Shown one piece after another: positions 41,927 to 63,894 of a stretch of DNA of 64,000 nt. The position numbers were made by a program, and so were the translations under genes. The notes beneath the pieces are model-generated. The model was not told the DNA's origin. It saw nothing but the letters and a program-made list of their open reading frames with translations, and made no database searches. The stretch spans positions 3,239,001 through 3,303,000 of the forward strand of contig BSQZ01000036.1 of NCBI GenBank assembly GCA_033239005.1. Direction: 5' to 3'. Every line of letters starts with the position of its first letter. Position 1 is the stretch's first letter. This DNA comes from Lamellibrachia satsuma (taxonomy: Eukaryota; Annelida; Polychaeta; Sabellida; Siboglinidae).

Positions 41927-41941
41927 ATGAAGAATTACACG
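41927..41941 (+). CDS. Cys-rich secreted peptide A, exon 1
   Basis: ATG AAG AAT TAC ACG, then donor GTATGT at 41942, phase 0. The five-codon first exon with M-K start and GTATGT donor recurs at 45378, 49394, 57301 and (GTACGT) 63880. That recurrence, together with a phase-0 acceptor in exon 2 at the homologous position, is why I accept such a short exon. The intron is 1284 bp. Confidence 0.75.
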
Positions 41942-42289
41942 GTATGTGTGACTCTGTGTTCAGGCATAACACATAAAGGTTGCAGTAAACTGTGCATGCC
42001 ATAGAAAACATTGTTGAAAGATGCAAATTTGGCACAAAAACCACGTCCTAGATGAGGTGAACACCGGGAATGTTCTTCAGTGATTTCATTGTAACATGTA
42101 AACTGTTTAATAGAAAACGTCTCTCTTGATATTGCGAGTCAAGAATATCTGGAAGATTTGCAAGGTTGTTATATCAGGAATAATTTACTGTTTTGACATT
42201 AAATGAAGATATATTATCATCAACTATGGCTACCAACACGCAAGTTGGTACAGGACTGAGGCATTCGTATTGAAGAGAGTCAAAGATAC

Positions 42290-42475
42290 CTTTCAGAGTA
42301 TCTTGGTATGCTCAACAGAGCTTTTGTGACCTTCGTGGTATCACTAAAGATGCAACCTTCGTGGAACTGTTGTCATGTGACCATCAACATGGTCACATGA
42401 CACCGGCGAAAGGTTCAGTTTGACCCTAAAGAAGTGACCTAGAGGGTCATGAAAGCTCTGTTGAGCATAAAAACT
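42290..42475 (+). mobile_element. Diverged relative of the 28080-28250 element
   Basis: Shares scattered blocks with the Penelope-like fragment. The reading frame is lost. Lies in the intron of peptide gene A. Confidence 0.35.
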
Positions 42476-42507
42476 CTGAACCTTAAACTTTTAACTAATT
42501 TAAATAT

Positions 42508-42714
42508 TTTCATCCACATCCACATTCTTATGCCACATTCATCCACATCCACATTCTTATGCCATATTCATCCACATCCACATTCTTATGCCACATTCAT
42601 CCACATCCACATTCTTATGCCACATTCATCCACATCCACATTCTTATGCCACATTCATCCACATCCACATTCTTATGCCATATTCATCCACATCCACGTT
42701 CTTATGCCACATTA
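42508..42714. repeat. 29-bp minisatellite, about 7 copies
   Basis: Unit tccacatccacattcttatg plus ccacattca; near-perfect. Confidence 0.95.
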
Positions 42715-42844
42715 ATGTATTAACTATTTATATATACATACATTCTTGGTCTTACATTTTATTTTTAATCATACTATCATAGACATTTATTTTATACATT
42801 ACTCGCAATTTTATCATTAATTAATTATGTAAAGCGCTTTGAGC

Positions 42845-42919
42845 TTTATAAGGCTATTGCACTCTATAATAATTATACATATATATATATATATATATAA
42901 TTATTATAGAGTGCAACAG

Positions 42920-42967
<48 letters not shown>

Positions 42968-43095
42968 TCATCGAATTTAGTGTGTTGGACTAATCGAGTA
43001 TATATATATATATTCGATTAGTCCAACACACTAAATTCAATGATGATAATATATATATATATATATATACACTCAGTCTTGTACCAACTTGTATG

Positions 43096-43168
<73 letters not shown>
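42845..43168. repeat. (TA)n cruciform cluster
   Basis: Two consecutive long palindromes around (TA)n. The first is tgcactctataataattata with its complement ataattattatagagtgca; the second has arms cgaatttagtgtgttggact and agtccaacacactaaattca. A further ~75-bp (TA)n follows at about 43098-43168. Ends 57 bp before exon 2 of peptide gene A. Confidence 0.9.
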
Positions 43169-43170
<2 letters not shown>

Positions 43171-43225
43171 TCAGTTCTGGATGACAAACGAGTTTCTCAA
43201 AAGAAATAACCTTTCCACACTCCAG

Positions 43226-43447
43226 TGTGCCGTTGCGACTTTGCTGCTACTACTCTTCACTGCGGTGTCAACTACGGAAGGTGCAAGTACAGAACTTTGC
43301 GTCTGCATTGAGAGGTGCCGGTGGGATGACATTAAGTGTCAAGGAGACAATTGGAAGTTATTCTCCCTGCGTTTCTCCGAGCCAGAAGTCTGTTCTAATG
43401 CCTACAGATGGTGCTTGAAAGGATGCCATGAGAAATACAAGTACTGA
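43226..43447 (+). CDS. Cys-rich secreted peptide A, exon 2
   Basis: Acceptor ccacactccag, phase 0. With exon 1 it gives a 78-residue precursor. It has a strong signal peptide (A-T-L-L-L-L-L-F core, residues 6-22, likely cleaved near STTEG-A) and a mature part of about 54 residues. Cysteines at precursor positions 30, 32, 36, 43, 61, 68 and 72 give C-x-C-x3-C-x6-C-x17-C-x6-C-x3-C. That is two short segments with mirror-image spacing, as expected for a disulfide-stapled helical hairpin. The cysteine number is odd (7 in the mature part). I do not recognise a named family. Secreted host-defence, venom-type or signalling peptides are all possible; the function is unknown. Confidence 0.8.
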   Translation, partial: CAVATLLLLLFTAVSTTEGASTELCVCIERCRWDDIKCQGDNWKLFSLRFSEPEVCSNAYRWCLKGCHEKYKY

Positions 43448-43844
43448 TGACGCCGATATGTATTGGCTTGAGAGAAGGTCGGCCTAGGTCACCTTACAGC
43501 CATCAGAAGAGATGCATACTGAAATGTCATTTCTCAAAAAAAAAAAAAAAAATTCTATTTCATTATTACAAAAAACAACATGATTTCAGCTGTGTAGTTC
43601 ATGATCGTAGTTCATGATTGTATTCATACTCGTTCTCACAGAGAAAAATAAATGATTATCTACTATAAATAAAAATATTTTCATCCATGTTTCTTATGCT
43701 ACATCAACGCATTTAAATATACATATTTTGTTTTGATCTAGTACTTTATTTTGAATCAAAAATATTTATTTTATACATTACTCACAATTTTATAATTAAT
43801 TATTTTATCAGAAATTCTTTTATTACAGACATTTATTTTATGGA

Positions 43845-44045
43845 ACAGATTATTTACAGATGTTCTACAAATTGTGCAAATGCTAGCAGTGTGAATATGT
43901 TTAAAACAAAACTGACAAACATCTCAGAAGGGCGTGTTACACACAGATGAAAAATTGTTGGACTCTCGATAAACCAATGGCTTCCTTGTCCACTTGCCAT
44001 CTGGGCCTTTGTCTTGGATGGCAAATCTTGTTAAATCTCTTGTTA
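43845..44045 (+). mobile_element. CR1-like LINE 3' fragment
   Basis: Same tail as 335-785 and 40560-41095 (ggacaagg.. / atggcaaatcttgttaaatc), plus strand, frame broken. Confidence 0.65.
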
Positions 44046-44279
44046 AATGGTGTGTAGAGCAATATTTGTATTGTACTACTGAATGAAAACATGAAGAATT
44101 TAACTAGACTTATATGCCAAGTGAACCTGAAATGTTGCTGATACGTGATGTTAATAACGATATCAATCTATTTGTGCAAATGTAGATATGTTAATAAATG
44201 TATAATATTGCATCAAGTATAAATATATAAAGATGGTTTGGAATTTTTTTAAATACTTACAATTAACAAATTGTGGAGT

Positions 44280-44325
44280 GATGACTGAACACGTGCACGC
44301 ACGCACGCACGCACGCACACATGCA
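44280..44325. repeat. (CGCA)n microsatellite
   Basis: acgc/cacg run. Confidence 0.9.
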
Positions 44326-44329
44326 CACC

Positions 44330-45370
44330 CACATAATACATAGTCAGAGTTGTATTTTCTACCATTTTTTGGGTTGTCTTTTGTTGGGAGGATGGAAATT
44401 TAACGTCTCAAATAATTATGAGCATGCCTTTTATTCTAGGGTGGAAATTTTCCACGCAACCATTCATGAAGGAATCATATTATACTATAGCTTATTTGTT
44501 TATCTAAACTAAATATACCTGTGTTTTGTAACAAACAACAAATATATGTGGATTGTTACACAACACTAACAACAACTTAATCTAGACCTGTTTCATTACC
44601 CTAATCCTTAGAAATACCCATGATGCTTCAGTGACTAGATTTTATATTACCCCCCACTATTAAAGTCACCTTGACACATTGGTGATCTTAACAGCGATGT
44701 TTGACTATACTTAATAACCAATGATCTTAAACTGAAATGACTCATTTATCTAGCACTCATAAGTAAGTAGCACTTAATCCTACAGACCAGTGACATGATC
44801 ATGGCAAAGTCAAACTGTTCACATGATACATAGATGGCAGGCACTTGACTGACTTGAGCCGAGTGGCCAAGGTGGGAGGAGCAAGATTAATGATAGAAAC
44901 TCATTATGCTTCCTGCTAACTTAAAACTAATTCTTAAGACTGAATTCCATACAGTTGGTGCAGTAACCAAGAAAACCATACTGCCAAAGTTCGTCTGTTA
45001 AATTGTTTCTTGTGACAGTTATTGTAACCTTTCAATATAATGGACAGAGTGAATGTGCGTGCATACGTGCATGCGATCGATGTGTTGAGTTGGATATGTA
45101 AATTGAAGTCAAAGATGTCAACATTGCTGGAGTAGTCCTCACAAGGACACAGGCTAGTAATAACAACAGGTCAAGTTCACATTGACCTTAAAGGGATACA
45201 CTTCTAGTGACCACTCTTGTGTCATAGCGAACCACTGTCAAGAGCATTCAACATACCAGAATCACACCTGATTTAAGCAAGGTAAACATCCAATTTGTCT
45301 CAAGTTGTATATAACAAGTCTGGCAGTGTGACGATAGCTCTGGTTTTGCTTAACAAGCAGAAGATTTACT
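44330..45370. other. Intergenic between peptide genes A and B
   Basis: No repeat family or gene recognised. The promoter of gene B should lie just before 45378. Confidence 0.4.
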
Positions 45371-45377
45371 GGCCCAG

Positions 45378-45392
45378 TATGAAGAGCATTAT
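45378..45392 (+). CDS. Cys-rich secreted peptide B, exon 1
   Basis: ATG AAG AGC ATT ATG, then donor GTATGT at 45393, phase 0. Same design as exon 1 of gene A. The intron is 866 bp and includes a (TG)n tract close to the donor. Confidence 0.72.
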
Positions 45393-46258
45393 GGTATGTA
45401 CACCTATGCATGTGTGCGTGTGCGTGTGTGTGTGTGCACGCTTGTGCGCATGTAAGAATCTTCCTGGTACTAAATAAATCCCTTATTAAATGCTTCAGTT
45501 GACGTCCTGGAAAATGTGTAATAAAATTAAAAACTGAACAGCTTGAAAAATGCATCGATGAAATACCAAATGTAAATGTAATCATTTTGTTCTGTTGTTC
45601 ATGTCCTCTTTTCACCAGTAGTTTGTGTTTATATCAACCACTGGTTGATGCTCAAAGTAATTTATATATCTTATATTCGTATAAATACATGACAGCAATA
45701 TGTATGCATTTTAATTCTTTATCAAATTTGCATGTTTTGATGATATAAATAAGTCACAGTCTGACATATATGTGTCCAAAGCATAACTGATTTATTACTT
45801 ACTTACTACACCATAACTAGTGCAAAAGACCACTTGATATTTGTTTATAAAAGATAGATAATATGTTACGCATTTGTGATTCGAAAGCAAGCTACAATTG
45901 TCCAACTTTACTTCCCAGGATTTAACGAATCCTTTTACTGGATGAAGCAAAATGGACACAAAGTAAAATTTCATGCCTTGTTAAAATAATTTTTACATGC
46001 AATAGACGATGTTTGCGATGCATGCGCATTAGCATTATAGTTTCTTACGTCCCACAACCAATTTCCAAAAGTACCAGTTTCAGACATTGCAGTGACTTCA
46101 CAAACATATCGCAATGACGTCACAAACATATCGCATCGATGCCACAAACATATGGCAATGAAGTCACAAAGACGACCCATGACTGTAGTTTTATTTTTAG
46201 CCAATAGGTGGCATCGTATGTGCTGTGAATGTTGTCTATTTATTTGTTTCGATTTCAG

Positions 46259-46489
46259 TATGTCATTGCGGCCTTGCTGCTACTATTCAGCACTGTGACG
46301 TCAGCTGTACCAGTGGGACGCAGAAGCTATGACGAGAAGCCTTGTCCCTGTGTAGATGACTGTCGCCAGACTATGAGGACGTGTATGGAAGACAACACGA
46401 GTATGGTTGACTCCTTGAAACTCCACATGCCCGAAAAATGCTACGAATTCATCAACAGGTGCCTGGAAAACTGTCTTCAGCAGAAGTGA
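46259..46489 (+). CDS. Cys-rich secreted peptide B, exon 2
   Basis: Acceptor ttgtttcgatttcag, phase 0. With exon 1 it gives an 81-residue precursor. The signal core is A-A-L-L-L-L-F (residues 9-15), with cleavage probable after T-S-A (residue 21). A dibasic R-R at 26-27 could be a propeptide cleavage site. Cysteines at 34, 36, 40, 47, 66, 73 and 77 give C-x-C-x3-C-x6-C-x18-C-x6-C-x3-C, the same framework as gene A with one more loop residue. The mature part is acidic at its start and ends L-Q-Q-K. Genes A and B share the extra cysteine two residues before the core (seven in total), which genes C-E lack. Confidence 0.82.
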   Translation, partial: YVIAALLLLFSTVTSAVPVGRRSYDEKPCPCVDDCRQTMRTCMEDNTSMVDSLKLHMPEKCYEFINRCLENCLQQK

Positions 46490-47372: not shown

Positions 47373-47435
47373 TCAATTCGATTTTTTCGCTAGTCTCATT
47401 TCAAATTCATTTTGCGAAAAATCAAACCTATCGTG

Positions 47436-48716: not shown

Positions 48717-49393
48717 GCCACATTCATTGGAGTCTCCTTATGCCAAACAGGTGTTTGTGAGTCAGACATGGGTGTATGTGAGTCAGACACAGGTGTTTGT
48801 GACTCAGACATGGGTGCTTGTGAGTCAGTCACAGTTCACAGGATTTGCCTGTCCTCAGGGGGAGTTAAGGGGGTCTGAACGAACCCCCCTCTTGAGAGAA
48901 TTTTGTTTAACTGTAAAAATTTTCAGAAATCATCCCAGAAATCCCCAGTTGATTGCATACGCTCGAACCCCCCTTTTCAAAACCCTCAGGCCAGGTCTGC
49001 TGGACACGGACACTTTCACTTGTTTGTGTCCTTCAATAAAGTTCAAGTAAACATACTTATTCTTACTTATTCGAAGCATCCATTGACACACTCCTGTGGC
49101 TTCCAGAAGCACCACAAGGAAGAGACTAACTTGAGACACAAAGACTAAAGTAAACACTTATTATTATTTATCAACAACAAGTGTTTGTTACCAACATTGA
49201 AACATTGTGGGAGACATCTGAATTGCCTTTCCTTGACAAGGTCTCATGAGTTGGCGAGGCCACTGATCTGACACGTGACAATATACTCGTACTTCATTCC
49301 ACTGTTAGTGTGCACGCCTCATCTACCTACGTGTACACACACGCACATATTTCACTAGCGATAAACTAACCCAGCGACAGACAAACTCCAAAT
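48717..49393 (+). promoter_or_regulatory. Duplicated 5' flank of peptide gene C
   Basis: Homologous along its length to 56630-57300 and 63120-63879. It contains a 21-bp repeat (gtgtttgtgagtcagacatg), a G-run (ggggga...ggggg), the segment cttcaataaagttcaagtaa, and ends with actccaaat just before ATG. A similar segment precedes each duplicated exon 1, so it probably contains the promoter. No TATA box stands out. Confidence 0.5.
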
Positions 49394-49408
49394 ATGAAGA
49401 CCACTGGG
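49394..49408 (+). CDS. Cys-rich secreted peptide C, exon 1
   Basis: ATG AAG ACC ACT GGG, donor GTATGT at 49409, phase 0. The duplicate at 57301 differs by one base (AGT for ACT). The intron to 53328 is 3919 bp and carries a transposon-end pair, a relic exon, a MITE, a LINE and a satellite. The short distal partial copy at 54703 could be an alternative second exon for this start. Confidence 0.75.
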
Positions 49409-49763
49409 GTATGTAACCAGATATATTATTGCAGAACATAAGGTTTGCATTATTAATAATGTGCTAAATATGTTAATTTTATACAGTTGAGCCTCGATAT
49501 TACGCGCCTGTTACTGAGTGGATTGTGTCCTGAATGCGGTTGGTCGTGGACCCCGATTTTCTGCCGTCAGGGGGGAAATGGGAATAGCTGTCTTTCAGAG
49601 TGTTTTGCCCGCGTTCGATCACCGCACCAATCTATTTCCTAACTAGCGCTTCTTTTGCAAGATGTACTCCCTGTGTTTGTCAAACCTACTTAGTCTTAGA
49701 ATTGCTTTAATGGTTCTCAATGTGAACAATAAATGAATGGCGAGGTGTTGTTTCAATGTTTAG

Positions 49764-49901
49764 TCTGTTTCATCAATCAATCAATCAATCAATATTATGC
49801 TGCTGGCTTCACCTTCGCCTCTGTGGTTTGTAAAATTGCAATTCACATTCAGAAATATGCCTTGTGTAAGAACCAGTAAAATAGTCTTAAATGCAACTTA
49901 G
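49764..49901 (+). pseudogene. Relic signal-peptide exon in gene C intron
   Basis: After acceptor-like tttcaatgtttag an open frame runs in phase 0 to TAG at 49899. It is homologous to 57681-57737, but a (TCAA)n expansion has replaced much of the hydrophobic core (S-V-S-S-I-N-Q-S-I-N-I-M-L-L-A-S-P). Probably a dead second exon of an older family member. Confidence 0.45.
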
Positions 49902-50123
49902 TAGCCAACACCAGTATAAAACGGGTGAAATGGCATACTCAGAACTCAGAAACAGTTTATTTGACCTGTTTAGACATAATATACACTGTTAATTTAAATA
50001 ATAAGTAAGGTCGGGAGATTCCCATTAAGACATATAATGCCGCTAGCATGGGAGCCACCCCATAAATGTAAACAACAAAATTAACTTAATATGATCTGAT
50101 TAGTAAATTACTTATATTGATGG

Positions 50124-50357
50124 TTAAAGGTGCTTAATCAATTAAATTTTTTTACTAGTCTCATTTCTAATAAATTTAAAAAAAAAACAACCCTAGTATC
50201 CACTGCAACATGCTAGTCTGTGCAACTTCTGTATGTAGTTTTTGTGAAATCATCAGACAAACTATTACATTAGTTTATGCTTTTCCAAGCATTAACTGAA
50301 GTGAAAATCTAAACACTAAAAATCACAATTTTCTTCCCTGGTGAAATTTTGTAACTT
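50124..50357. mobile_element. Truncated TTAA MITE
   Basis: Starts ttaaaggtgcttaatcaatt and matches 39497 onward to ttttgtaactttgtc, where it is cut by the 35-bp array. Confidence 0.65.
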
Positions 50358-51715
50358 TGTCTCTACTATGTTATGTCTAATGTATTGTTAGCTGTCTCTA
50401 CTATGTTATGTCTAATGTATTGTTAGCTGTCTCTACTATGTTATGTCTAATGTATTGTTAACTGTCTCTACTATGTTATGTCTAATGTATTGTTAACTGT
50501 CTCTACTATGTTATGTCTAATGTATTGTTAACTGTCTCTACTATGTTATGTCTAATGTATTGTTAGCTGTCTCTACTATGTTATGTCTAATGTATTGTTA
50601 ACTGCCTCTACTATGTTATGTCTAATGTATTGTTAGCTGTCTCTACTATGTTATGTCTAATGTATTGTTAGCTGTCTCTACTATGTTATGTCTAATGTAT
50701 TGTTAACTGCCTCTACTATGTTATGTCTAATGTATTGTTAGCTGTCTCTACTATGTTATGTCTAATGTATTGTTAGCTGTCTCTACTATGTTATGTCTAA
50801 TGTATTGTTAACTGCCTCTACTATGTTATGTCTAATGTATTGTTAGCTGTCTCTACTATGTTATGTCTAAAGTATTGTTAACTGTCTCTACTATGTTATG
50901 TCTAATGTATTGTTAACTGTCTCTACTATGTTATGTCTAATGTATTGTTAACTGTCTCTACTATGTTATGTCTAATGTATTGTTAGCTGTCTCTACTATG
51001 TTATGTCTAATGTATTGTTAACTGCCTCTACTATGTTATGTCTAATGTATTGTTAGCTGTCTCTACTATGTTATGTCTAAAGTATTGTTAACTGTCTCTA
51101 CTATGTTATGTCTAATGTATTGTTAACTGTCTCTACTATGTTATGTCTAATGTATTGTTAGCTGTCTCTACTATGTTATGTTTAATGTATTGTTAACTGT
51201 CTCTATTATGTTATGTCTAATGTATTGTTAACTGTCTCTACTATGTTATGTCTAATGTATTGTTAGCTGTCTCTACTATGTTATGTTTAATGTATTGTTA
51301 ACTGTCTCTATTATGTTATGTCTAATGTATTGTTAACTGCCTCTACTATGTTATGTCTAATGTATTGTTAGCTGTCTCTACTATGTTATGTCTAAAGTAT
51401 TGTTAACTGTCTCTACTATGTTATGTCTAATGTATTGTTAACTGTCTCTACTATGTTATGTCTAATGTATTGTTAGCTGTCTCTACTATGTTATGTCTAA
51501 TGTATTGTTAACTGTCTCTACTATGTTATGTCTAATGTATTGTTAGCTGTCTCTACTATGTTATGTTTAATGTATTGTTAACTGTCTCTATTATGTTATG
51601 TCTAATGTATTGTTAACTGTCTCTACTATGTTATGTCTAATGTATTGTTAACTGCCTCTACTATGTTATGTCTAATGTATTGTTAACTGTCTCTACTATG
51701 TTATGTCTAATGTAT
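50357..51715. repeat. 35-bp satellite, about 39 copies
   Basis: Unit ctactatgttatgtctaatg plus tattgtta(g/a)ctgtct, 35 bp. Higher-order pattern of g/a and t/c variants (agctgtct, aactgcct, aactgtct). It abuts the 3' end of the minus-strand LINE at 51716, so it lies in the position of that LINE's 3' tail. Confidence 0.97.
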
Positions 51716-52570
51716 TTTTTGCATATTCATGTTTGACTGTGGAAATGAACAGATTATTTCTTTCACACATGTAGTGTCGACGAATTTCATAGTTGTGTGT
51801 GTAGGGAATATCATTGAAATATTTGGGTAATTGATTATTAACTAATTTGTAGTAAAATTTTAGTAGTTGGAGTTTATAAATGTCATCCAACTTCAGTAAC
51901 TGGAGTTTCTTATAAATAGGCCCTTTATGGGCATTATATTTACTTAAGGATATTATTCGTATTGCTTTTTTCTGTAGTTTGAAGATTCAATTTGCCTGAT
52001 CACCCCATAACAGTATACCTTAAATTAATTAATATGAGGGAGGATAAGGGAATTGTACATAATAGATAATATATTTAGTGGAAAATATTGCTTAAGTTTA
52101 TTTTTAAAATTCCAATTGTTTGAGTGATTTTGTTAGGTATTTTGTTTGTATGACTGCCAGTTTAAATGGTTATTTATTTTGATGCCCAATAAATCAAAAT
52201 CATTCACACATTCAATGTTTGTTCTATCTGTATGTAACACAGGGTATTCTACTTTCTTTTGAAGCATATAAAAAATCATGAATTTAGTTTTTTGGCATTA
52301 AGTGAAAGTTTATTAGCTTTCAACCAATTACTAATCTTTGCAAGTTCTTTATTAATATTTTCATTTTGGGTTTGGCCTTCTGAATCTTAAAAAAATCTTT
52401 AGTGTACTAGTTAGGGTGGTATCGTCAGCATAAGTTATGAAATTAAAAAGGTCAATGGAAAGTGCTATGTCATTGATGTATATAATAAGTAAGAGTGGTC
52501 CATACTTACGTTGCATCATAAATCTAAGTTTTCGCGGTGCCAAACCAAATACAAATGGGTGCACAAAAAT
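51716..52570 (-). mobile_element. LINE with reverse-transcriptase YADD motif, 5'-truncated
   Basis: Minus-strand pieces read GPLLLIIYINDIALS and FNFITYADDTTLTSTLK (catalytic YADD). They continue to a K-T-K-F-M-I-F motif, N-D-F-D-L-L-G-I-K-I-N-N-H-L-N-W, and MDDIYKLQLLKFYYKLVNNQ near the C-terminus. At least three frameshifts or stops are present. A non-LTR element of CR1/Rex-like type; duplicated at 59670-60545. Confidence 0.85.
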
Positions 52571-53327
52571 ACGACTTTGTCATGTGCACATGAAACGGTG
52601 AATCAGTGGTACGGGAGATGTGCATCATGAATTTATTCTTCGAGATCGGTTGAAAGACAAAGTGAAGTAATTATTGATGAAACCTATAATTGTTTTCAAT
52701 GTTTAATCAACTTTCACACTGCATGTGTCAACTCATATACGTGTTCGGTTACTTAGATCCAGGTTATTACTTTCGAATCTCATTAGTTGATGAATCTGTA
52801 CCAGCTCATCATAGTCAATCTATTCCATAACTGTACATACATGTATTTTATCCTATTAAAAATTGTGATATTAAAAAACATGTTAGCTATATTAACCACG
52901 TACAAAATGCACAGTGACAGTGGCTTTGACGGCGTTCTTGGTACTGCGGACGCAGATCGCTGTTGTTTAGTATACGGGAACACCTAGATACGAGAACACC
53001 TAACATGCCTCGCTTACAACGCGGTCTGAAATCATGGACCCAGACAACCGCGTTATATATCGAGGCTCGACTGTACTGTGGTTATTGATAAATCATATTT
53101 TATTAACAAATACATAAATACGCATGCATGTTGTTTATTATATTGCTAGATATGATCTGGTAAATTATAAAACGCAATATTAAAAACACATATACCAAGA
53201 TACATGCAATGTTGGAGACTAAATATGTCAGTAATACGTGATTTATCAATAAAATTTGATTTTAAGTCATCATGACTAGAACTATCTGCATATTCTGCAC
53301 ACCTGTATTCTGGTGACATAATTTCAG

Positions 53328-53543
53328 TATGCCACTGCGGCCGTGCTGCTGCTATTCGCCATAATGGTGTCAACTATGACCACCCAGAAATCGGCATCAG
53401 ACATCAGATCCTGCAAAATACGATGCCAGTGGAAACACATGCTGTGTACTACTGGAATCAAATTCACAACCATGTCTCATCCCTGCAATGCGTTATCAAG
53501 AGAGTGTGTGGCACGGTGTCATAGAGAATACACACTGCACTGA
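53328..53543 (+). CDS. Cys-rich secreted peptide C, exon 2
   Basis: Acceptor gacataatttcag, phase 0. With exon 1 it gives a 76-residue precursor. Signal core A-A-V-L-L-L-F-A-I-M-V, cleavage probable near S-T-M-T-T-Q (residues 20-25). Cysteines at 34, 38, 45, 58, 65 and 69 give C-x3-C-x6-C-x12-C-x6-C-x3-C with even number (6). The mature part is basic (K-I-R, Q-W-K-H, A-R-C-H-R). Compared with copies at 54703 and 61253, the signal region and cysteines are kept while the residues between the cysteines differ more, for example x6 = QWKHML, QRNHLL and QRKHLL. Function unknown. Confidence 0.8.
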   Translation, partial: YATAAVLLLFAIMVSTMTTQKSASDIRSCKIRCQWKHMLCTTGIKFTTMSHPCNALSRECVARCHREYTLH

Positions 53544-53924
53544 ACTAGCACACGACAGGGGACACAAGTTTTGTCAGCCGCCATATTGGTTTTATGCAAA
53601 TTTACCCATAAATGCTCACTTCCGGTCCCCAACGACACGCTGCCCACTAACGCATTTCAAACAAACACATTTGGAATTAAAACAGAGACAACAAACAATA
53701 ACACATTTACTTCTATTATTTATTAAAACTAGCATTCAAATGTGATAATACTAATGGTTTATTGTATAACAACATACTTATTTATATATATTTAACATGT
53801 TATGATGTGCACAACAACTATCGCCTCAAAATGAGAATTCCTACTGTAGAAATTAACTGGCTACAAATTGGATCAGATCTCTCTATGGCACGGACAGCAT
53901 CCTTGTTAACAAATGGCGATGTTG

Positions 53925-53995
53925 TACCACAAATGGCGATGTTGTACCACAAATGGCGTTGTTGTTGTACCACAAATGGCGATGTTGTAACACCA
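53925..53995. repeat. 20-bp minisatellite, short allele
   Basis: Four units of aaatggcgatgttgtaccac in the 3' flank of gene C; expanded to about 30 units at 61868-62470. Confidence 0.9.
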
Positions 53996-54014
53996 TCCTG
54001 GGTACATCCACAAA

Positions 54015-54020
54015 AATAAA
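54015..54020 (+). promoter_or_regulatory. Candidate poly(A) signal, gene C
   Basis: AATAAA 472 bp past the stop, kept at the homologous position in all three duplicated 3' flanks (55399 and 62494). Confidence 0.5.
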
Positions 54021-54087
54021 CAAGGACTTGAATGTTACCCTGCAACTATATTAACCAATGACATTTAGCGCTGGAAAATCCGTTAGA

Positions 54088-54345
54088 CTGGTAGTTTATT
54101 CAGTCACGCATCAGTTAGACCGGTAGTTTATTCAGTCATGTATCAGTTAGACCAGTAGTTTATTCAGTCATGTATCAGTTAGACCAGTAGTTTATTCAGT
54201 CATGTATCAGTTAGACCAGTAGTTTATTCAGTCATGTATCAGTTAGACCAGTAGTTTATTCAGTCATGTATCAATTAGACCGGTAGTTTATTCAGTCATG
54301 TATCAGTTAGACCAGTAGTTTATTCAGTCATGTATCAGTTGCAGG
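54088..54345. repeat. 32-bp minisatellite, about 8 copies
   Basis: Unit agttagaccagtagtttatt plus cagtcatgtatc. Short versions (3-4 and 2 copies) lie at 55465-55590 and 62555-62630. Confidence 0.95.
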
Positions 54346-54409
54346 TGATCTAAGTACTAGGGTTAGATCAATGTTATATATTCTACCTGCTAAACCAAAT
54401 ATAGACTAC

Positions 54410-54489
54410 ACAGCCACCTAACGCGTCTCGCTTACAATATGGTCTGAAATCGAGAACCCCAACAACCGCATTATATCGAGGCTCGACTG
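54410..54489. mobile_element. Solo right end of the Tigger-like element
   Basis: The segment cgcttacaatatggtctgaa ... tatcgaggctcgactg followed by TA, with no left end nearby. It marks the left limit of a partial duplication that carries exon 2 without exon 1. Confidence 0.6.
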
Positions 54490-54702
54490 TACTGTGGTTA
54501 TTGATAAATCATATTGTATTGATTGATGTGATCTGATAAAATATAAAAGGCAATATTAAGAACACATATACCAAGACACATGCAACATTGGAGACTATTA
54601 TGTCAGTAATATGTGATTCATCAATAAAATTTAATTTTGAACCATCATGACTTGAACTACCTGCATATTCTGCACACCTGTATTCTGGTGATATAATTTC
54701 AG

Positions 54703-54912
54703 GGTGCCGCTACAGCCCTGCTTCTGCTATTTGCCATAATTGTGTCAACTACATCCACCCAGACTTCGATATATGACATCTGCATACTACGCTGCCAAAG
54801 GAATCACCTGCTGTGCATTCAAGGAAATGAATTCACAACCATGCCCCATCCCTGCATTGTGTTGTCAAGAGAGTGTATGGCGTGGTGCTATAGAGATTAC
54901 ATACTGCCTTGA
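54703..54912 (+). CDS. Cys-rich secreted peptide D, exon 2 only
   Basis: Acceptor atataatttcag, phase 0, open to TGA at 54910. Encodes G-A-A-T-A-L-L-L-L-F-A-I-I-V and the full framework C-x3-C-x6-C-x12-C-x6-C-x3-C (D-I-C-I-L-R-C; S-R-E-C-M-A-W-C-Y-R). No ATGAA/GTATGT exon 1 is visible between 53544 and 54702, and the solo transposon end shows that the duplication began inside the intron. It is therefore either an alternative second exon for the start at 49394, or an orphan exon on its way to a pseudogene. The open frame and intact cysteines favour use. Confidence 0.6.
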   Translation, partial: GAATALLLLFAIIVSTTSTQTSIYDICILRCQRNHLLCIQGNEFTTMPHPCIVLSRECMAWCYRDYILP

Positions 54913-55398
54913 ACTAGCACATTATAGGGACACAAGTCTCGTCAGCCGCCATGTTGGTTTTATGCAAATTTGCCCATTGACACAAAACGCATTTCACACA
55001 TAAACACATTTGAATTAAGAGTGAACAAACAATAACACATTTACTTCTGTTAATTATTAAAACTAACATTTAAATGTGATAATACTAATGGTTTATTTTA
55101 TAGTGACAGGTATGTTTAATGTGTTATGATGTGCATAACTTTGGGGCTGGAAGTGCATTATTTCATCAACTATCGCCTCGAAACGAGAATCACTTGTGTT
55201 CCCTACTGTACTCTGTAGAAATTAAATGGCTACAAATTGGAGCAGAACTCTACAGAACGGACAGCATCCTTGTGAACAAATGGCAATGTTGTACCATAAA
55301 TGGCGATGTTGTATCACAAATAGTGATGTTGTACCATAGATGCCGATGCTGTACCACAAATGGCGATGTTGTAACACCATCCTGAGTACATCCGCAAG

Positions 55399-55404
55399 AA
55401 TAAA
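55399..55404 (+). promoter_or_regulatory. Candidate poly(A) signal, exon D
   Basis: AATAAA at the position homologous to 54015 and 62494. Confidence 0.45.
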
Positions 55405-55694
55405 CAAGGACTTGAACGTTACCATGTGACTATATTAACCAATAACATTTAGCGCTAGAAAATCAGTTAGACAGGTTTATTCAGTCTTGTATCAGTTAGA
55501 CTGGTAGTTTATTCAGTAATGTATCAGGTAGTTTATTTAGTCATGTATCAGTTAGACCGGTAGTTTATTCAGTCACGTATCAATTGCAACTGATCTAAAT
55601 ACTAGGGTTCAGTCAATGTCATATGTTCTACCTTGATTCGTAACCACAAATACATGAAACGTGTTATTTTTAACATGTTTCATGTGCCTGTAAG

Positions 55695-55970
55695 TGCAAG
55701 TGGAGCACGGTGGTTGTGTGGTAGAGTGTCAGACTATCAGTCAAGTGGACCGGAGTTCAAAACCACATTCAAAACATGGGCAATTTCATTCACCCCACTT
55801 TGCCTGTGTCTTTCGGAAGATGCAGTGAAAACCATTAGTCCATTCTGCCTGGTGTCTGTTTCAGGGAACGTAAAACACAACACAAAGAAAAATGGAAAAA
55901 AATCTACTGTGGACTCACTAACTCTAGATAAGGAAAACTCAAATAAACATAAACTTAAATGAACCACTCA
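55695..55970 (+). mobile_element. tRNA-derived SINE
   Basis: Head with A-box-like tggttgtgtggtagagtg and B-box-like ggagttcaaaacc, body with tctgcctggtgtctgtttca and tail aactctagataaggaaaact followed by aaataaac. A second copy is at 62735-63020 within the duplicated block. Confidence 0.75.
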
Positions 55971-55974
55971 TGTG

Positions 55975-56630
55975 GAGTTAATTCCTCGATGCTCAGGGTA
56001 TCTACTATGATATGAAGAAAGAAAGTGCTAAGTTGAAATTCAGATGAGGTTTGTGCATAATGCGTGGTCTGCTACCATCTAACTCAGAGATTCTCAACCT
56101 GGGGTACGCGTACCCTTTGGGGTACAGTGTATGCCAGATGTTTTCCAGGGGGTACACAGAGGGTTGGATGAAGCTAAGGCTTCATCCAGCAATGGTGCAA
56201 AAATTTTTTCACTTTATGTGGTCCACGAAGGAGGAAATGTGTTCCTGTAATACAATCAAATTCACACAAAACGTATTCCTGTCTAGCAAACATTCAACGC
56301 TATTACAAAATGTCATGAGCCAAATCGATTAATTGCTAGTCTCAATAGACCTACAGTTTTCCCAGTTAAGATAATAATAATAATAAAATACGATATTTAA
56401 TAGCGCCATAATCACATAGTGCTCCATGGTGCTTTACAATAGTCTAAAAATGAATATCATACATCAAATTAAACAGTTAAAAATACAAATACAATTTAAA
56501 TTTAAGGGCATTACAACTTACGTCTGTAATTCTATGACACTATGATTATTTCAGGACACGAAGGGAAAAAAAGGTTGGAAACTGCTGGTTTAGCTCATAC
56601 AGTAAACCACATTTATTGATTTAGCTCATA
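55975..56630. other. Intergenic, no gene seen
   Basis: Includes a segment at 56360-56520 beginning ataataataataaaatacga with 'gtgctccatggtgctttaca', which looks like another SINE or small repeat. Confidence 0.4.
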
Positions 56631-57300
56631 GAGCAAACCACATTCATTGGAGTCTCCTTATCCAAAACAGGTGTTTGTGAGACAGACATGGGTGTTTGTG
56701 ACTCAGACACGGGTGTTTGTGAGTCAGACACAGTTCACTGGACTTGCACATCCTCAGGGGGGGTTAAGGGGGTCTGAAAGAACCCCCCCTTTTTGAGAGA
56801 ATTTTGTTTAACTGTAAAAATGTTAAGAAATCATCCCAGAAATCCCCAGCTGATTGCATACGCTTGAACCCCCCTTTTCAAAACCCTCAGGCCAGGTTTG
56901 CTGGACACGGACACTTTCACTTGTTTGTGTCCTTCAATAAAGTTCAAGTAAACATACTTATTATTACTTATTTGAAGCATCCATTGACACACTCCTGTGG
57001 CTTCCAGAAGCACCACAAGGAAGAAACTAACACGAGACACAAAGACTAAAGTAAACACACTTTTTATTTATCAACAACAAGTGTTTGTGACCAACATTGA
57101 AGCTTTGTGGGAGACATCTGAATTGCACTTCCTTGACAAGGTCTTACGAGATGGTGAGGCACTGGACCACTGATCTAACACGTGGCAATATACTCATTCT
57201 TCATTCCACTGTTAGTGAGCACGCCTCGTCTACCTACGCGTACACACACGCACACAGTTCACTAGCGATAAACTAACCCAACGACAGCCAAACTCCAAAT
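56630..57300 (+). promoter_or_regulatory. Duplicated 5' flank of peptide gene E
   Basis: Second copy of the block at 48717-49393, with fewer 21-bp units and a few indels. Ends immediately at the ATG of gene E. Confidence 0.5.
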
Positions 57301-57315
57301 ATGAAGACCAGTGGG
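57301..57315 (+). CDS. Cys-rich secreted peptide E, exon 1
   Basis: ATG AAG ACC AGT GGG, donor GTATGT at 57316, phase 0. The intron to 61253 is 3937 bp, nearly the same length as in gene C although its internal repeats were rearranged. Confidence 0.75.
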
Positions 57316-58035: not shown

Positions 58036-59316
58036 ATGGAACTATGAAATTTATCGACACTACATGTGTCAAAGAAATAATCTGTTCATTTCCAGAATCA
58101 AAAATGAATATGCCAAAAAAAAATATTAGACATAACATAGTAGAGACATTTAACAATACAGTAGACATAACATAGTAGAGACAGTTAACAATACATTAGA
58201 CATAACATAGTAGAGACATTTAACAATACATTAGACATAACATAGTAGAGACAGTTAACATTACATTAGACATAACATAGTAGAGACAGTTAACAATACA
58301 TTAGACATAACATAGTAGAGACAGTTAACAATAAATTAGACATAACATAGTAGAGACAGTTAACAATACATTAGACATAACATAGTAGAGACAGTTAACA
58401 ATACATTAGACATAACATAGTAGAGACAGTTAACAATACATTAGACATAACATAGTAGAGACATTTAACAATACATTAGACATAACATAGTAGAGACAGT
58501 TAACAATACATTAGACATAACATAGTAGAGACAGTTAACAATACATTAGACATAACATAGTAGAGACAGTTAACAATAAATTAGACATAACATAGTAGAG
58601 ACAGTTAACAATACATTAGACATAACATAGTAGAGACAGTTAACAATACATTAGACATAACATAGTAGAGACAGTTAACAATACATTAGACATAACATAG
58701 TAGAGACAGTTAACAATACATTAGACATAACATAGTAGAGACATTTAACAATACATTAGACATAACATAGTAGAGACAGTTAACAAGACATTAGACATAA
58801 CATAGTAGAGACATTTAACAATACATTAGACATAACATAGTAGAGACATTTAACAATACATTAGACATAACATAGTAGAGACAGTTAACAATACATTAGA
58901 CATAACATAGTAGAGACAGTTAACAATACATTAGACATAACATAGTAGAGACAGTTAACAATACATTAGACATAACATAGTAGAGACAGTTAACAATACA
59001 TTAGACATAACATAGTAGAGACAGTTAACAATACATTAGACATAACATAGTAGAGACAGTTAACAATACATTAGACATAACATAGTAGAGACAGTTAACA
59101 ATACATTAGACATAACATAGTAGAGACAGTTAACAATACATTAGACATAACATAGTAGAGACAGTTAACAATACATTAGACATAACATAGTAGAGACAGT
59201 TAACAATACATTAGACATAACATAGTAGAGACAGTTAACAATACATTAGACATAACATAGTAGAGACAGTTAACAATACATTAGACATAACATAGTAGAG
59301 ACAGTTAACAATACAT
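58036..59316 (+). mobile_element. LINE 3' stub plus 35-bp tail satellite
   Basis: 58036-58124 is the reverse-oriented match of the LINE 3' end at 51716-51800 and 59670-59720. It is followed by about 34 units of the 35-bp repeat (acataacatagtagagacag plus ttaacaatacattag), the reverse complement of the array at 50357-51715. Read along the LINE, order is the same as there: 3' end, then 35-bp repeats. It is an independent, heavily 5'-truncated insertion. Confidence 0.8.
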
Positions 59317-59409
59317 CAAACATTATAATAAATAAAACTTCCACACACAGATTTCTCCACTTACATGAAAAACTACTTCATTGTAAATTATGAATTCTGC
59401 TGCTTTACA

Positions 59410-59669
59410 CATAATTGTTATATTTGTAATTCTTAAAGCAATAATTACATTTTGTATATAATGCATAATGTACACTGCATTGCACACAAACACACACACA
59501 CACAGCCACACACACAGCCACCCACACACAAACCCACCCACCCACGCACGCACGCATGCACGCACGCATGCACGCACACACACACACATATATATGCAAT
59601 GCAGTGTACATGATGCATTACATACAAAATGTAATCATTGCTTTAAGAATTACAAATATAACAATTATG
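59410..59669. mobile_element. Long inverted-repeat MITE with (CA)n loop
   Basis: Two ~75-bp arms (cataattgttatatttgtaa ... tgcattgca) are near-perfect reverse complements around a (CA)n/(CACG)n centre. It separates the LINE at 59670 from the array. Confidence 0.9.
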
Positions 59670-60545
59670 AACAGATTATTTCTTTGACATGTGTAGTGTC
59701 GATGAATTTCATAGTTGTGTGTGTAGGGAATATCATTGAAATATTTGGATAATGGATTATTAACTAATTTGTAGTAAAGTTTTAGTTGTTGGAGTTTATA
59801 AATGTCATCCAACTTCAGTAATTGAAGTTTCTTATAAATAGAAAAGGCATTATATTTACTTAAGGATATTATTCGTATTGCTTTTTTCTGTAGTTTGAAG
59901 ATTCAATGTGCCTGATCACCCCATAACAGTATACCTTAAATTAATTAATATGAGGGAGGATAAGGGAATTGTACATAATAAATAATATACTAAGCACTAA
60001 ATAGTGTTTAAGTTTATTTTGAAAATTCCAATTGTTTGAGTGATTTTGTTAGCTATTTTGTTTGTATGACTCTGCCAGTTTAAATGGTTATTTATTTTGA
60101 TGCCCAATAAATCAAAATCATTCACACATTCAATGTTTGTTCCATCTGTTTGTAACAGAGGGTATTCTACTTTCTTTTGAGGCATATGAAAAATCATGAA
60201 TTTAGTTTTTTGGGCATTCAGTGAAAGTTTATTAGCTTTCAACCAATTACTAATCTTTGTAAGTTCTTTATTAATATTTTAATTTTGGGTTTGGCCTTCT
60301 GAATCTTTAAAAATCTTTAGTGTACTAGTTAGGGTGGTATCGTCAGCATAAGTTATGAATTTAAAAAGGTCAATGGAGTGCTGTCATTGATGTATATAAT
60401 AAGTAAGAGTGGTCCATACTTCCGTTGCATCATAAATCTAAGTTTTCGCGGTGCAAACCAAATACAAGTGGGTGCACAAAAATACGAATTCATCATCTGC
60501 ATATGAAACGGTGAATCAGTGGTACGGGAGATGTGCGTCATGAAT
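59670..60545 (-). mobile_element. LINE with reverse transcriptase, second copy
   Basis: Closely related to 51716-52570. Reads MKANKLSLNAQKTKFMIFHM and N-D-F-D-L-L-G-I-K-I-N-N-H-L-N-W intact over 81 codons, then MDDIYKLQQLKLYYKLVNNP. The YADD region is disrupted by a deletion near 60375. Confidence 0.85.
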
Positions 60546-61252
60546 TTATTCTTCGAGATCGGTTGAAAGACAAAGTGAAGTAATTACTGATGGAAAATAT
60601 AATTGTTTTCAATGTTTAATCAGCTTTCACCCTGCGTATGTCAACTCATATACGTGTTCGGTTACTTAGATCCAGGTTATTACTTTCGAATCGCATTAGT
60701 CGATGAATCTGTACCAGTTCATCATAGTAAATCTATTCCATAACTCTACATACATGTATTTTATTCAGTTAAAAATTCAACAGTGTGATATTTAAAAATA
60801 ATACACATTACCTATATTAACCGTGTATAAACTGCATGGCCAGCGCACAGTGGCAGTGGCTTTGACAGCGTTCTTGGTACTGGGGACAGAGATTGCCATT
60901 GTTTAGTAGTCCCTGGTGGCAGATATAGGAACACCTAACGCATCTCGCTTACAATGCGGTCCGAAATCGTGGACCCGACAACAGCGTTATATCGAGGCTC
61001 AACTGTACTGTGGTTATTGATCAATCATATTTTATTAACAAATACATAAATATACACGCATCTTGTTTATTGTATTGATAGATTTGATGTGATAAAATAT
61101 AAAATTATGGACACATATACCAAGATACATGCAATGTTGGAGACTAAATATGTCAGTAATATGTGATTCATCAATAAAATTTGATTTTGAATCATCATGA
61201 CTAGAACTATCTGCATATTCTGCACACCTGTATTCTGGTGACATAATTTCAG

Positions 61253-61477
61253 TATGCCGCTGCGGCCATGCTGCTGCTGTTCATCATAATGGTGTCAACT
61301 ACGTCCACCCAGACTTCGAAATCTGACATCTGCAAAAGACACTGCCAAAGGAAACACCTGCTATGCATTCACGGAAACGAATTCACAACCACGCCTCATC
61401 CCTGCTTTGTGTTGTCAAGAGAGTGTATGGGGTGGTGCTATAGACATTTCGCACTGCCTTTAACCAACACACAATAG
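61253..61477 (+). CDS. Cys-rich secreted peptide E, exon 2
   Basis: Acceptor gacataatttcag, phase 0. With exon 1 it gives a 79-residue precursor. Signal core A-A-A-A-M-L-L-L-F-I-I-M-V; mature part with C-K-R-H-C-Q-R-K-H-L-L-C, a 12-residue loop ending T-P-H-P-C, then S-R-E-C-M-G-W-C-Y-R. Same six-cysteine framework as C and D, rich in His/Arg/Lys. The C-terminus is seven residues longer than in D because the stop has shifted (A-L-P-L-T-N-T-Q). Confidence 0.82.
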   Translation, partial: YAAAAMLLLFIIMVSTTSTQTSKSDICKRHCQRKHLLCIHGNEFTTTPHPCFVLSRECMGWCYRHFALPLTNTQ

Positions 61478-61867
61478 GGAGCACAAGTCTCGTCAGCCGC
61501 CATGTTGGTTTCATGCAAATTTGCCCATAAATGGTCACTTTCGGTCCCCAACAACACGCTGCCCGCTAACGCATTTCACACATAAACACATTTGGAATTA
61601 AGAGAGAACAAACAATAACACATTTACTTCTATTATTTATTAAAACTAGCATTTAAATGTGAAATTACTAATACTAATGGTTTAATTTATAATGACATAG
61701 GTACATTTAAAGTATCATGGTGTGTGCAACTTGGGGGGCCAGAAGTGCATTATCTCGTTAACTATCGCCTCGAAACGAGAATCACTTGTGTTCCCTATTG
61801 TAGAAATTAACTGGCTACAAATTGGAACAGAACTCTACAGAACGGACAGCATCCTTGTGAACAAATG

Positions 61868-62470
61868 TACCACACATGGTGATGTTTACCCAAATGGTGA
61901 TGTATCACAAATGGTGGTGTTTACCACAAATGGCGATGTTGTATCACAAATGGTGATGTTCACCACAAATGGTGATGTTTTCCACAAATGGTGATGTTGT
62001 ACCACATCGCGATGTTGTACCACATGGCGATGTTGTACCACAAATGGCGATGTTGTTCCACAAATGGCGATGTTGTTCCACAAATGGCGATGTTGTACCA
62101 CATGGCGATGTTGTACCACATGGCGATGTTGTTCCACAAATGGCGATGTTGTACCACATGGCGATGTTGTACTACAAATGGCGATGTTGTACCACAAACG
62201 GCGATGTTGTTCCACAAATGGTGATGTTGTACCACAAATGGTGATGTTGTACCACATGGCGATGTTGTACCACAAATGGCGATGTTGTACCACAAATGGC
62301 GATGTTGTACCACAAATGGCGATGTTGTTCCACAAATGGTGATGCTGTATCACAAATGGCAATGTTCTACCACAAGTGCGATGTTGTACCACAAATGACG
62401 ATGTTGTACCACAAATGGCAATTTTGTACAACAAATCGGGATGTTGTATCACAAATGGCAATGTTGTAAC
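61868..62470. repeat. 20-bp minisatellite, about 30 copies
   Basis: Unit aaatggcgatgttgtaccac with some 17-bp units (lacking aaa) and ttcc/tacc variants. It lies between the stop of gene E and its poly(A) signal, so it would be in the 3' UTR. Confidence 0.95.
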
Positions 62471-62493
62471 ACCATCCCTGGTACATCCGCAAG

Positions 62494-62499
62494 AATAAA
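62494..62499 (+). promoter_or_regulatory. Candidate poly(A) signal, gene E
   Basis: AATAAA about 1.0 kb after the stop; homologous to 54015 and 55399. Confidence 0.5.
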
Positions 62500-62734
62500 C
62501 AGACTTGAACGTCACCATGTGACTATATTAACCAATGACATTTAGTGCTAGAAAATCAGTTAGACAGGTAGTTTATTCAGTTATGTATTAATTAGACTGG
62601 ATAGTTTATTCAGTCACGTATCAGTTGCAACTGATCTAAATACTAGGGTTCAGTCAATGTCATATGTTCTACCTTGATTTGTAACCACAAATACATGAAA
62701 TATGTGTTATTTATAACATGTTTAATGTGCCTGT

Positions 62735-63020
62735 AAGTGCAAGTGGAGCACGTGGTTGTGTGGTAGAGTGTCGGACTTTGAGTCATGTGGATCGCAGTTC
62801 TAAACCACCTATTGGTACTGTCGTTTCGAAACATGGGCAATTTTGTTCACCCCACTTTGTGTGTGACATTCGGAAGAGACACTAAAAGCTGTTGATCTTT
62901 TCTGCCTGGTGTCTATTTCAGGGGATGTAAAACACACCACACAGGGAAATGGAAAAAATCTACTGTGGACTCACTAACTCTAGATAAGGAAAACTCAAAT
63001 AAACATAAACTTAAATGAAC
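62735..63020 (+). mobile_element. tRNA-derived SINE, duplicated copy
   Basis: Same head, body and tail as 55695-55970, and its flanks also match (tactagggttcagtcaatgt), so it came with the segmental duplication. Confidence 0.75.
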
Positions 63021-63119
63021 TCATGTGGAGCTAATTCCTCGATGCTCAGGGTATCTACAATGATATGAAGAAAGAAAGTGCTAAGTTGAAATTCAGTTGA
63101 GGTTTGTGCATGTTGCGTC

Positions 63120-63879
63120 ATCAGCTACCATCTAACTTGTACAACAAGCCACATTCACTAGGGAGACATCAAATGTGTGTTTGTTACTCAGAAACGGGTG
63201 TTTGTGGGTCAGACATGGGTGCCTGTGAGTCAGACAGGGGTGTTTGTGAGTCAGACAAGGGTGTTTGTGAGTCAGACAAGGGTGCTTGTGAGTCAGACAT
63301 GGGTGTTTGTGAGTCAGACATGGGTGTTTGTGAATCAGACAGGGGTGTTTGTGAGGCAGACACAGTTCACTGGACATGCCCGTACTCACTGGGGTTAAGG
63401 GGGTTCAAATGAAACCCCGTTTTTGACAGAATTTTGCTTAACTGTAAATTTTTTTAGAAATCACGCTCGAACCCCCCTTTTCAAAACCTTGAGGCCAGGT
63501 CTGCTGGAAACAGAGACCTTTTGTGCCTTCAATAAAGTTATGTAAACATACTTATTACAACTTATTTGAAGCATTCACTGACACACACACCTGTGGTTTA
63601 TAGAAGCACCACAAGGAAGAGACTAACACAAGGTGCAACGACTAAAGTAAATGCACTTATCATTATTTATCAACGACAAGTGTTTGTGACTTATACAGAA
63701 GCAGTTTGGGAGGTTTCCGAATTGCTCTTCCTGACAAGATGGACAGGCCACTAGAGCACTGATCGTGACAATATACCTGTCGTGCACTCCGCTGTTAGTG
63801 TGCACGTATCGTACTCAAGATATCACACGCACATAGTTCACTTGAGAGAAACCAGCTTAGCGACAGATTACTTCCAAAT
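63120..63879 (+). promoter_or_regulatory. Duplicated 5' flank of peptide gene F
   Basis: Third copy of the flank. It contains an expanded 21-bp minisatellite at about 63177-63365 (eight or so units of gtgtttgtgagtcagacatg). Confidence 0.5.
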
Positions 63880-63894
63880 ATGAACACTACTGGG
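63880..63894 (+). CDS. Cys-rich secreted peptide F, exon 1 (gene cut by window end)
   Basis: ATG AAC ACT ACT GGG, then GTACGT, phase 0, preceded by the same caaat as in genes C and E. By analogy exon 2 should lie 1-4 kb beyond the right edge. The cluster therefore continues. Confidence 0.65.

Follow-up and report, generated by a model that had tools for sequence, protein, structure and literature searches.

A tandem array of predicted two-exon genes for small, putatively secreted six-cysteine peptides in the tubeworm Lamellibrachia satsuma

What is encoded by the repeated tiny reading frames in this 64,000-nucleotide stretch of the Lamellibrachia satsuma genome (hereafter, the window), and what might their products do in a tubeworm, a gutless animal that depends on its symbionts? 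A first-pass annotation had described them as a tandem set of genes, each with two exons and each encoding a secreted peptide whose cysteines are symmetrically spaced. This description gained support from the extension of the array past the window, from the statistics of alignment gaps, and from homologues on a second contig and in another record. The array spans 41 kb on a single strand and comprises 10 exon 1s and 11 exon 2s; 5 exon 1s and 5 exon 2s lie inside the window, and 5 and 6, respectively, lie beyond it, with the array ending at 83205. A profile search of the region gave 12 matches above the threshold, namely, 11 copies with the same frame and 1 truncated, signal-only relic at 84779. 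Using a relaxed pattern for the exon-1 motif plus donor, we found 10 occurrences on the plus strand and 1 on the minus strand between 40000 and 86000 (window coordinates), and none on either strand in the remaining ~148 kb examined. The features are as follows.

41927..41941, plus strand: gene 1 exon 1 (MKNYT), donor GTATGT; NCBI model P0001 also starts with MKNYT
43226..43447, plus strand: gene 1 exon 2 with stop; signal core and peptide with seven mature cysteines, frame 3-6-17-6-3
45379..45393, plus strand: gene 2 exon 1 (MKSIM), donor GTATGT
46259..46489, plus strand: gene 2 exon 2 with stop; frame 3-6-18-6-3, extra N-terminal cysteine; two-helix model
48771..56084, no strand: tandem duplication unit of ~7.9 kb; the matching unit begins near 56670
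49394..49408, plus strand: gene 3 exon 1 (MKTTG), donor GTATGT
53328..53543, plus strand: gene 3 exon 2 with stop; frame 3-6-12-6-3
54703..54912, plus strand: extra exon 2 (copy 4) with stop; frame 3-6-12-6-3
57301..57315, plus strand: gene 5 exon 1 (MKTSG), donor GTATGT; NCBI model P0003 also starts with MKTSG
61253..61477, plus strand: gene 5 exon 2 with stop; frame 3-6-12-6-3; identical to P0003 from residue 6
63880..63894, plus strand: gene 6 exon 1 (MNTTG), donor GTACGT
66130-66363 (C36:3305130-3305363), plus strand: gene 6 exon 2, beyond the window

The five exon-2 starts given by the annotation were exact, as were its exon-1 starts at 41927, 49394, 57301, and 63880; the fifth, given as 45378, was off by one base and should read 45379. 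Its five-codon exon 1 with a phase-0 GTAYGT donor was also seen: each exon 1 consists of ATG and four further codons, followed in phase 0 by GTATGT (GTACGT at 63880). All five exon 2s in the window are immediately preceded by CAG and are open up to their stop codons. The splice between the two exons is a prediction from genomic sequence. Exon 1s and exon 2s alternate strictly along the array, with copy 4 (54703) as the sole exception. Their numbers in the window are equal, but they do not pair one to one, since 54703 is without an exon 1 of its own and the exon 1 at 63880 pairs with 66130. No exon 1 was found between 53328 and 54703, and the closest upstream exon 1 for both is the one at 49394. 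Copy 4 is possibly an alternative last exon of gene 3; NCBI model P0002 joins MKTTG to a version of copy 4 with 64 of 69 residues identical. Another model, P0001, merges gene 2 exon 2 with gene 1. A further protein, P0004, is 79% identical to gene 1 exon 2 and has a 99% match on contig C35.

That the copies are coding is supported by their alignment gaps, by the paralogue on contig C35, and by a relative in another record. Only 2 alignment gaps (both of 6 nt) fell in the coding parts, where 16.5 were expected, versus 71 in the flanks. This relative retains the same cysteines, with 40 of 72 residues identical (56%). Values of dN/dS over exon 2 ranged from 0.53 to 1.05 in five close pairs, which points to change that is loosely constrained or diversifying while the cysteines stay fixed. 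In the c3-c5 pair, coding divergence (21.4%) exceeded that of the flanks (13.3%; p=0.005). Overall, coding divergence was above that of both flanks combined in one of the five pairs and above that of the 3' flank in two, with no significant excess elsewhere.

The frame C-x3-C-x6-C-x(9-19)-C-x6-C-x3-C is present in all 11 copies. The central loop of 12 to 18 residues proposed earlier holds for the window copies (17, 18, and three times 12), but the range widens to 9 to 19 over the whole array. In copies 1 and 2, the mature peptide has one cysteine more, a seventh, placed directly N-terminal to the frame (C-x-C). The suggestion of two helices stapled back to back gained support in two ways. On a helix, each cysteine triplet falls within a 40 degree arc, which only 6 of 121 spacing pairs achieve, and an AlphaFold2 model of copy 2, a prediction of the kind the annotation had suggested, is a two-helix hairpin (mean pLDDT, 72.7). 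Nested disulfides (C1-C6, C2-C5, and C3-C4) would hold such a hairpin together.

The annotation, which assigned the peptides no role, could not place them in a named family, and our searches gave the same result. No Pfam family matched above its cut-off in the 9 of 11 copies scanned, and the 5 of 11 copies scanned against NCBIfam gave a weak match to Lepto_8Cys in one (E=0.0023). Big defensin (PF14862) was rejected, having reached 14.9 bits against a cut-off of 25 in one of the nine copies, over residues 6 to 29, which are mostly signal sequence. None of the passages retrieved by term searches of the genome papers on Riftia, Paraescarpia, and Ridgeia mentions a peptide family of this kind.

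The two half-frames are found together at no fewer than 47 loci, spread over 16 contigs of the tubeworm genome. The frame at these dispersed loci was partly selected for, because BLAST favours aligned cysteines. Sequence likeness was evaluated using shuffles that keep the cysteines fixed. Against the array profile, the C35 paralogue beat all 300 of its shuffles; it has the same exon layout, with exon 1 at C35:1069068 and donor GTATGT. Among 14 loci compared in this way, 10 had between 26 and 262 shuffles out of 300 that scored as high or higher, and the standouts were the C35 paralogue (0 shuffles scoring as high), L037 (1), an eight-cysteine locus on contig C39 (2), and L040 (3). L037 and L040 belong to a nine-cysteine family on C39 of which two further members scored less well (L043, 26; L039, 262), as did L047, a member on C20 (79). 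In a separate comparison, 12 of 14 nine-cysteine members beat all 300 cysteine-fixed shuffles. The array probably represents a branch of a wider family of tubeworm peptides, with 6 to 11 cysteines and loci on many contigs; with most of the dispersed loci it shares the cysteines, and we infer common descent.

Taken together, these data lead us to a tentative reading, to which we assign a probability of roughly 0.4: the array consists of working tandem genes for secreted helical hairpins with three disulfides, likeliest effectors on microbes, and forms a branch of the larger family. Exon 1 would supply the start codon and four residues, and exon 2 the remaining signal sequence and the mature peptide; the products are putatively secreted. 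They may act on microbes, whether those met at the surface of the body or the symbiotic bacteria of the trophosome. The stapled scaffold would stay fixed while the displayed surfaces are free to vary, and tandem duplication would widen the peptide repertoire. An antimicrobial or symbiont-directed action would fit these features, but the mature net charges, from -3 to +5, speak against it in that several copies are not cationic.

Alternatively, the products would be secreted structural or enzyme-inhibiting peptides of tube, mucus, or blood, unconnected with either defence or signalling. Tubeworms do make tubes and have much extracellular protein, but the loose constraint between cysteines and the repeated duplication would better fit changing targets, and we consider such a role rather unlikely.

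Toxins from the same genes and with the same fold, released at the surface or in mucus against predators or grazers, are likewise unlikely. The comparison here is with neurotoxin B-IV of the nemertean Cerebratulus lacteus, which is neurotoxic to crustaceans. B-IV (PDB 1vib) is a helical hairpin according to the title of Barnham 1997, as cited in PMC4986456. In the profile alignment its eight cysteines read 3-6-2-10-3-6-3, and the outer six (3-6-...-6-3) are spaced as in the array. Three dispersed loci, on C39, C8, and C14, come close to the eight-cysteine layout (3-6-3-13-3-6-3, 3-6-4-13-3-6-3, and 3-6-3-12-3-6-3). B-IV was also the sole PDB match of the window-copy profile, but at E=2.7, and no similarity beyond the cysteines was detected, with 175 of 300 of its own cysteine-fixed shuffles scoring as high. 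Its inner cysteine pair is absent from all 11 array copies, whose frame has six cysteines (a further mature cysteine is present in two copies). PDB searches gave no match at E<=10 with query A3 and one match, other than 1vib, with A4. In the structure comparison of the two-helix model, 1vib was absent among the matches listed (50 of 76 aligned chains). Tubeworms are sessile and are not known to have a venom apparatus, which counts against animal targets.

Waterborne or reproductive pheromones, or hormones, again from the same genes and fold, are a distinctly improbable third possibility. A diverging tandem family whose members are small, helical, and secreted would suit signalling, as would the acidity of several copies, the N-glycosylation sequons in the mature parts of copies 2, 8, and 9, and the dibasic stretches upstream of the frame in copies 2 (GRR) and 7 (RK). 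Molluscan attractin pheromones have six cysteines in a helical hairpin with nested bonds, but their spacing is unlike that of the array, and many copies with variable loop length are unusual in a hormone. Finally, chance open frames or a decayed noncoding repeat family, which the relic at 84779 and the exon 2 without an exon 1 might recall, can be set aside as most improbable given that 11 of 12 profile matches are intact with all six frame cysteines, that coding gaps are so few, and that the relative in another record keeps its cysteines.

If the peptides do act on microbes, the family offers dozens of concrete candidates for the means by which tubeworms keep their symbionts under control. 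A proteome study of Riftia put forward the speculation that division of the symbiont is inhibited by antimicrobial peptides from the host (PMC6918071). As described there, its peptide search retained only hits with >75% identity to known peptides, and histones were named (PMC6918071); unknown cysteine-rich peptides would thus have been missed. A bolder version, which we regard as speculative and unlikely as it stands, is a large, genome-wide tubeworm arsenal, evolved independently of legume NCR and aphid BCR peptides, in which stapled hairpins would enter the vacuoles of bacteriocytes and govern how the sulfur-oxidising symbiont grows and divides, the window holding one six-cysteine array.

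Among published peptides, aphid BCR3 has a similar spacing, given as CX3CX6CX21-25CX6CX3C in Table 3 of PMC9604261. Both of its half-frames (CX3CX6C and CX6CX3C) are present in all 11 array copies, whereas its loop is longer (21 to 25 residues versus 9 to 19). BCR3 is also small, with a signal peptide and six cysteines, in a host that relies on intracellular bacteria. It is listed as bacteriocyte specific in Table 1 of PMC3574423, and its effects on Escherichia coli are given in PMC6594739 as killing, elongation, and permeabilisation; PMC9604261 reports BCRs from aphids only. The likeness to the array is one of cysteine spacing; for BCR3 the disulfide pattern is listed as unknown. In a third system, an animal or plant that hosts intracellular bacteria likewise makes secreted cysteine-rich peptides belonging to large families. 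These peptides have other cysteine frames and belong to another fold class. Because the frame follows from helix geometry, BCR3 and the array may have converged on it without having a function in common. The comparisons suggest that annelids, nemerteans, and insects arrived at the same arrangement of cysteines because few alternatives are compatible with the geometry of a helix.

Searching by regular expression for the spacing of the six cysteines recovered the five second exons proposed in the first-pass annotation, and its remaining matches were cysteine-rich simple repeats. We built a profile from these copies and searched the window together with the 50 kb before it and the 80 kb after it (13 flanking stretches of 10 kb each) in the 735-Mb, 279-contig assembly of the siboglinid annelid Lamellibrachia satsuma (window, C36:3239001-3303000). 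The 12 above-threshold matches, all on the + strand, were the five window copies, six further second exons, and one truncated relic; no profile match lay upstream of the window copies, with the 50 kb upstream of the window covered. In the window and the 80 kb downstream, the array totals 11 second exons and 10 first exons.

Array copies, numbered by exon 2 (window coordinates, continued beyond its end; n, loop length)
Copy 1, + strand: exon 1 start 41927, exon 2 start 43226, n=17
Copy 2, + strand: exon 1 start 45379, exon 2 start 46259, n=18
Copy 3, + strand: exon 1 start 49394, exon 2 start 53328, n=12
Copy 4, + strand: without exon 1, exon 2 start 54703, n=12
Copy 5, + strand: exon 1 start 57301, exon 2 start 61253, n=12
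Copy 6, + strand: exon 1 start 63880, exon 2 start 66130, n=19
Copy 7, + strand: exon 1 start 67600, exon 2 start 69115, n=10
Copy 8, + strand: exon 1 start 70994, exon 2 start 72186, n=15
Copy 9, + strand: exon 1 start 73197, exon 2 start 74199, n=9
Copy 10, + strand: exon 1 start 78793, exon 2 start 81043, n=15
Copy 11, + strand: exon 1 start 82003, exon 2 start 83002, n=9
84779-84904 (C36:3323779-3323904), + strand: exon 2 relic with signal core, then a stop; cysteine part absent

All 11 copies carry the 3-6-n-6-3 cysteine frame. The loop range of 12 to 18 proposed earlier fits the window copies (12, 17, and 18) but is too narrow for the whole array (n=9-19). Predicted introns span 865 to 3937 bases (copy 4 excluded), the donor is GTATGT at all first exons but one (GTACGT), junctions are in phase 0, and CAG precedes every second exon.

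Among five close copy pairs, coding sequence held 2 gaps (both of 6 nt, probably one event), compared with 71 in the 500-base flanks and 16.5 expected at the flank rate; three independent pairs alone gave 1 versus 8.8 expected. Exon 2 dN/dS in close pairs was 0.53 to 1.05 (Nei-Gojobori). Coding change exceeded that of the 3' flank for copies 3 and 4 (p=0.007) and copies 3 and 5 (p=0.024), the latter being the sole pair of the five to exceed both flanks together (p=0.005); no significant excess appeared in the remaining close pairs. Together, these patterns indicate that the cysteines and frame are conserved, and that the rest drifts or diversifies.

Genes 3 and 5 belong to a tandem duplication whose unit is 7.9 kb long, and copies 8 and 9 are matched, as a pair, by copies 10 and 11. 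The unit includes a 35-bp minisatellite, located in the intron of gene 3 (50218-51719) and, in the opposite orientation, in that of gene 5 (58125-59323), and an approximately 20-bp unit (GATGTTGTACCACAAATGGC-like) is arrayed behind the second exons of the duplicated unit (53903-53993 and 61860-62480). Copy 4 is homologous to the 7.9-kb unit from shortly before exon 2, as if a deletion had taken off its front. It could serve as an alternative last exon from exon 1 at 49394; in P0002, an NCBI model, MKTTG is linked to a variant form of copy 4 (64/69 identical). Another model, LSAT2_025211 (P0001; 41927-46489), fuses genes 1 and 2: it holds part of copy 1 (54/54 residues) and all of copy 2 exon 2, cutting gene 1 before the fourth frame cysteine and losing its last part. 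P0003 (L. satsuma, NCBI) is identical to copy 5 across 74 residues. By eye, open frames at 40663-41097, 51699-51986, 59621-59902, and 60000-60278 (- strand) resemble LINE-type reverse-transcriptase remnants, and a long tandem repeat at 16050-18650 produces artifactual open frames as long as 844 aa.

Relatives extend beyond the array. Contig C35 holds a close paralogue with its own exon 1, and P0005 (from an ENA record) shares 40/72 residues with copy 1, all seven cysteines of the mature part being retained. The seventh cysteine (C-x-C, at the frame start) is common to genes 1 (43298-43300) and 2 (46343-46345), the C35 paralogue (~1070032), and P0005; an odd count points to a dimer or to a free thiol. 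As queries against the assembly, an eight-cysteine match from contig C39 gave 26 places (E<=10) and a nine-cysteine match gave 30 (E<=1). Both half-frames (CX3CX6C and CX6CX3C) occurred in 13 of 20 pieces examined from the former search and 19 of 20 from the latter, with the precise spacing 3-6-3-5-6-3-6-3 in 14 of those 19. In all, at least 47 loci, spread over 16 contigs, carry both half-frames (11 array copies, 1 on C35, the C39 query locus, 1 each on C19 and C25, and the 13 and 19 pieces), a frame partly selected for in the dispersed matches because BLAST favors aligned cysteines. In shuffles keeping cysteine positions, 12 of 14 nine-cysteine members stood at 0/300 and the remaining pair at 20 and 28, which shows this set to be a true family. 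C39 carries a large nine-cysteine group at 0.39-1.88 Mb; these relatives have hydrophobic leaders and the frame 3-6-3-5-6-3-6-3. Of 14 tubeworm loci tested likewise against the array profile, the C35 paralogue matched firmly (0/300) and three loci on C39 gave weak matches (1, 2, and 3 of 300); the remaining ten were not reached (26 to 262 of 300). When the eight- and nine-cysteine set was searched against proteins, ten were returned: P0006, which is the C39 query locus; five others from L. satsuma; three ENA entries; and P0015 of Ridgeia piscesae. P0015 and L. satsuma P0012 represent a nine-cysteine peptide (3-6-3-7-6-3-6-3) with 56/77 residues conserved between the two species.

The two-helix arrangement first suggested from the cysteine spacing is supported by geometry and prediction. 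On a helix, positions i, i+4, and i+11 (and the mirror) fall inside 40 degrees; among 121 spacing pairs (1 to 11), only 6 behave in this way: (3,6), (6,3), (6,6), (6,10), (10,6), and (10,10). With 13 sequences, AlphaFold2 predicted helices at 10-27 and 39-55 (mean pLDDT, 72.7; pTM, 0.48; 86-87 in the best ten-residue blocks). For an eight-cysteine relative, two long helices were predicted (26-55 and 57-84; blocks of 84-92).

The initial failure to place the peptides in a named family stands, with no above-cutoff Pfam match in any of the nine copies scanned (of 11). NCBIfam gave a single weak match among five copies, no solved structure was a relative better than E=1, and all 11 NCBI-named matches are called "hypothetical protein." Scaffolds of this type are already known; in the literature passages and database entries consulted, the family, along with its size and host, appears to be undescribed. 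Given duplication of a repertoire-like kind, surfaces that vary, and the biology of the host, we put first a reading of the array peptides as putative microbe-directed effectors, ahead of toxins, signals, or structural roles. Mature net charge ranges from -3 to +5, a range that does not favor reading all copies as plain cationic membrane peptides.

The outer cysteines of B-IV, an eight-cysteine neurotoxin of the nemertean Cerebratulus lacteus, match those of the array, with no similarity beyond cysteines by profile match and cysteine-fixed shuffles. The half-frames are those tabulated for aphid BCR3 (PMC9604261, Table 3); loop lengths differ, and this likeness, known from cysteine spacing, can be explained by helix geometry. 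BCR3 is described as a bacteriocyte-specific peptide (PMC3574423) and is reported to kill and elongate E. coli (PMC6594739). Its aphid host and the tubeworm both depend on intracellular bacteria.
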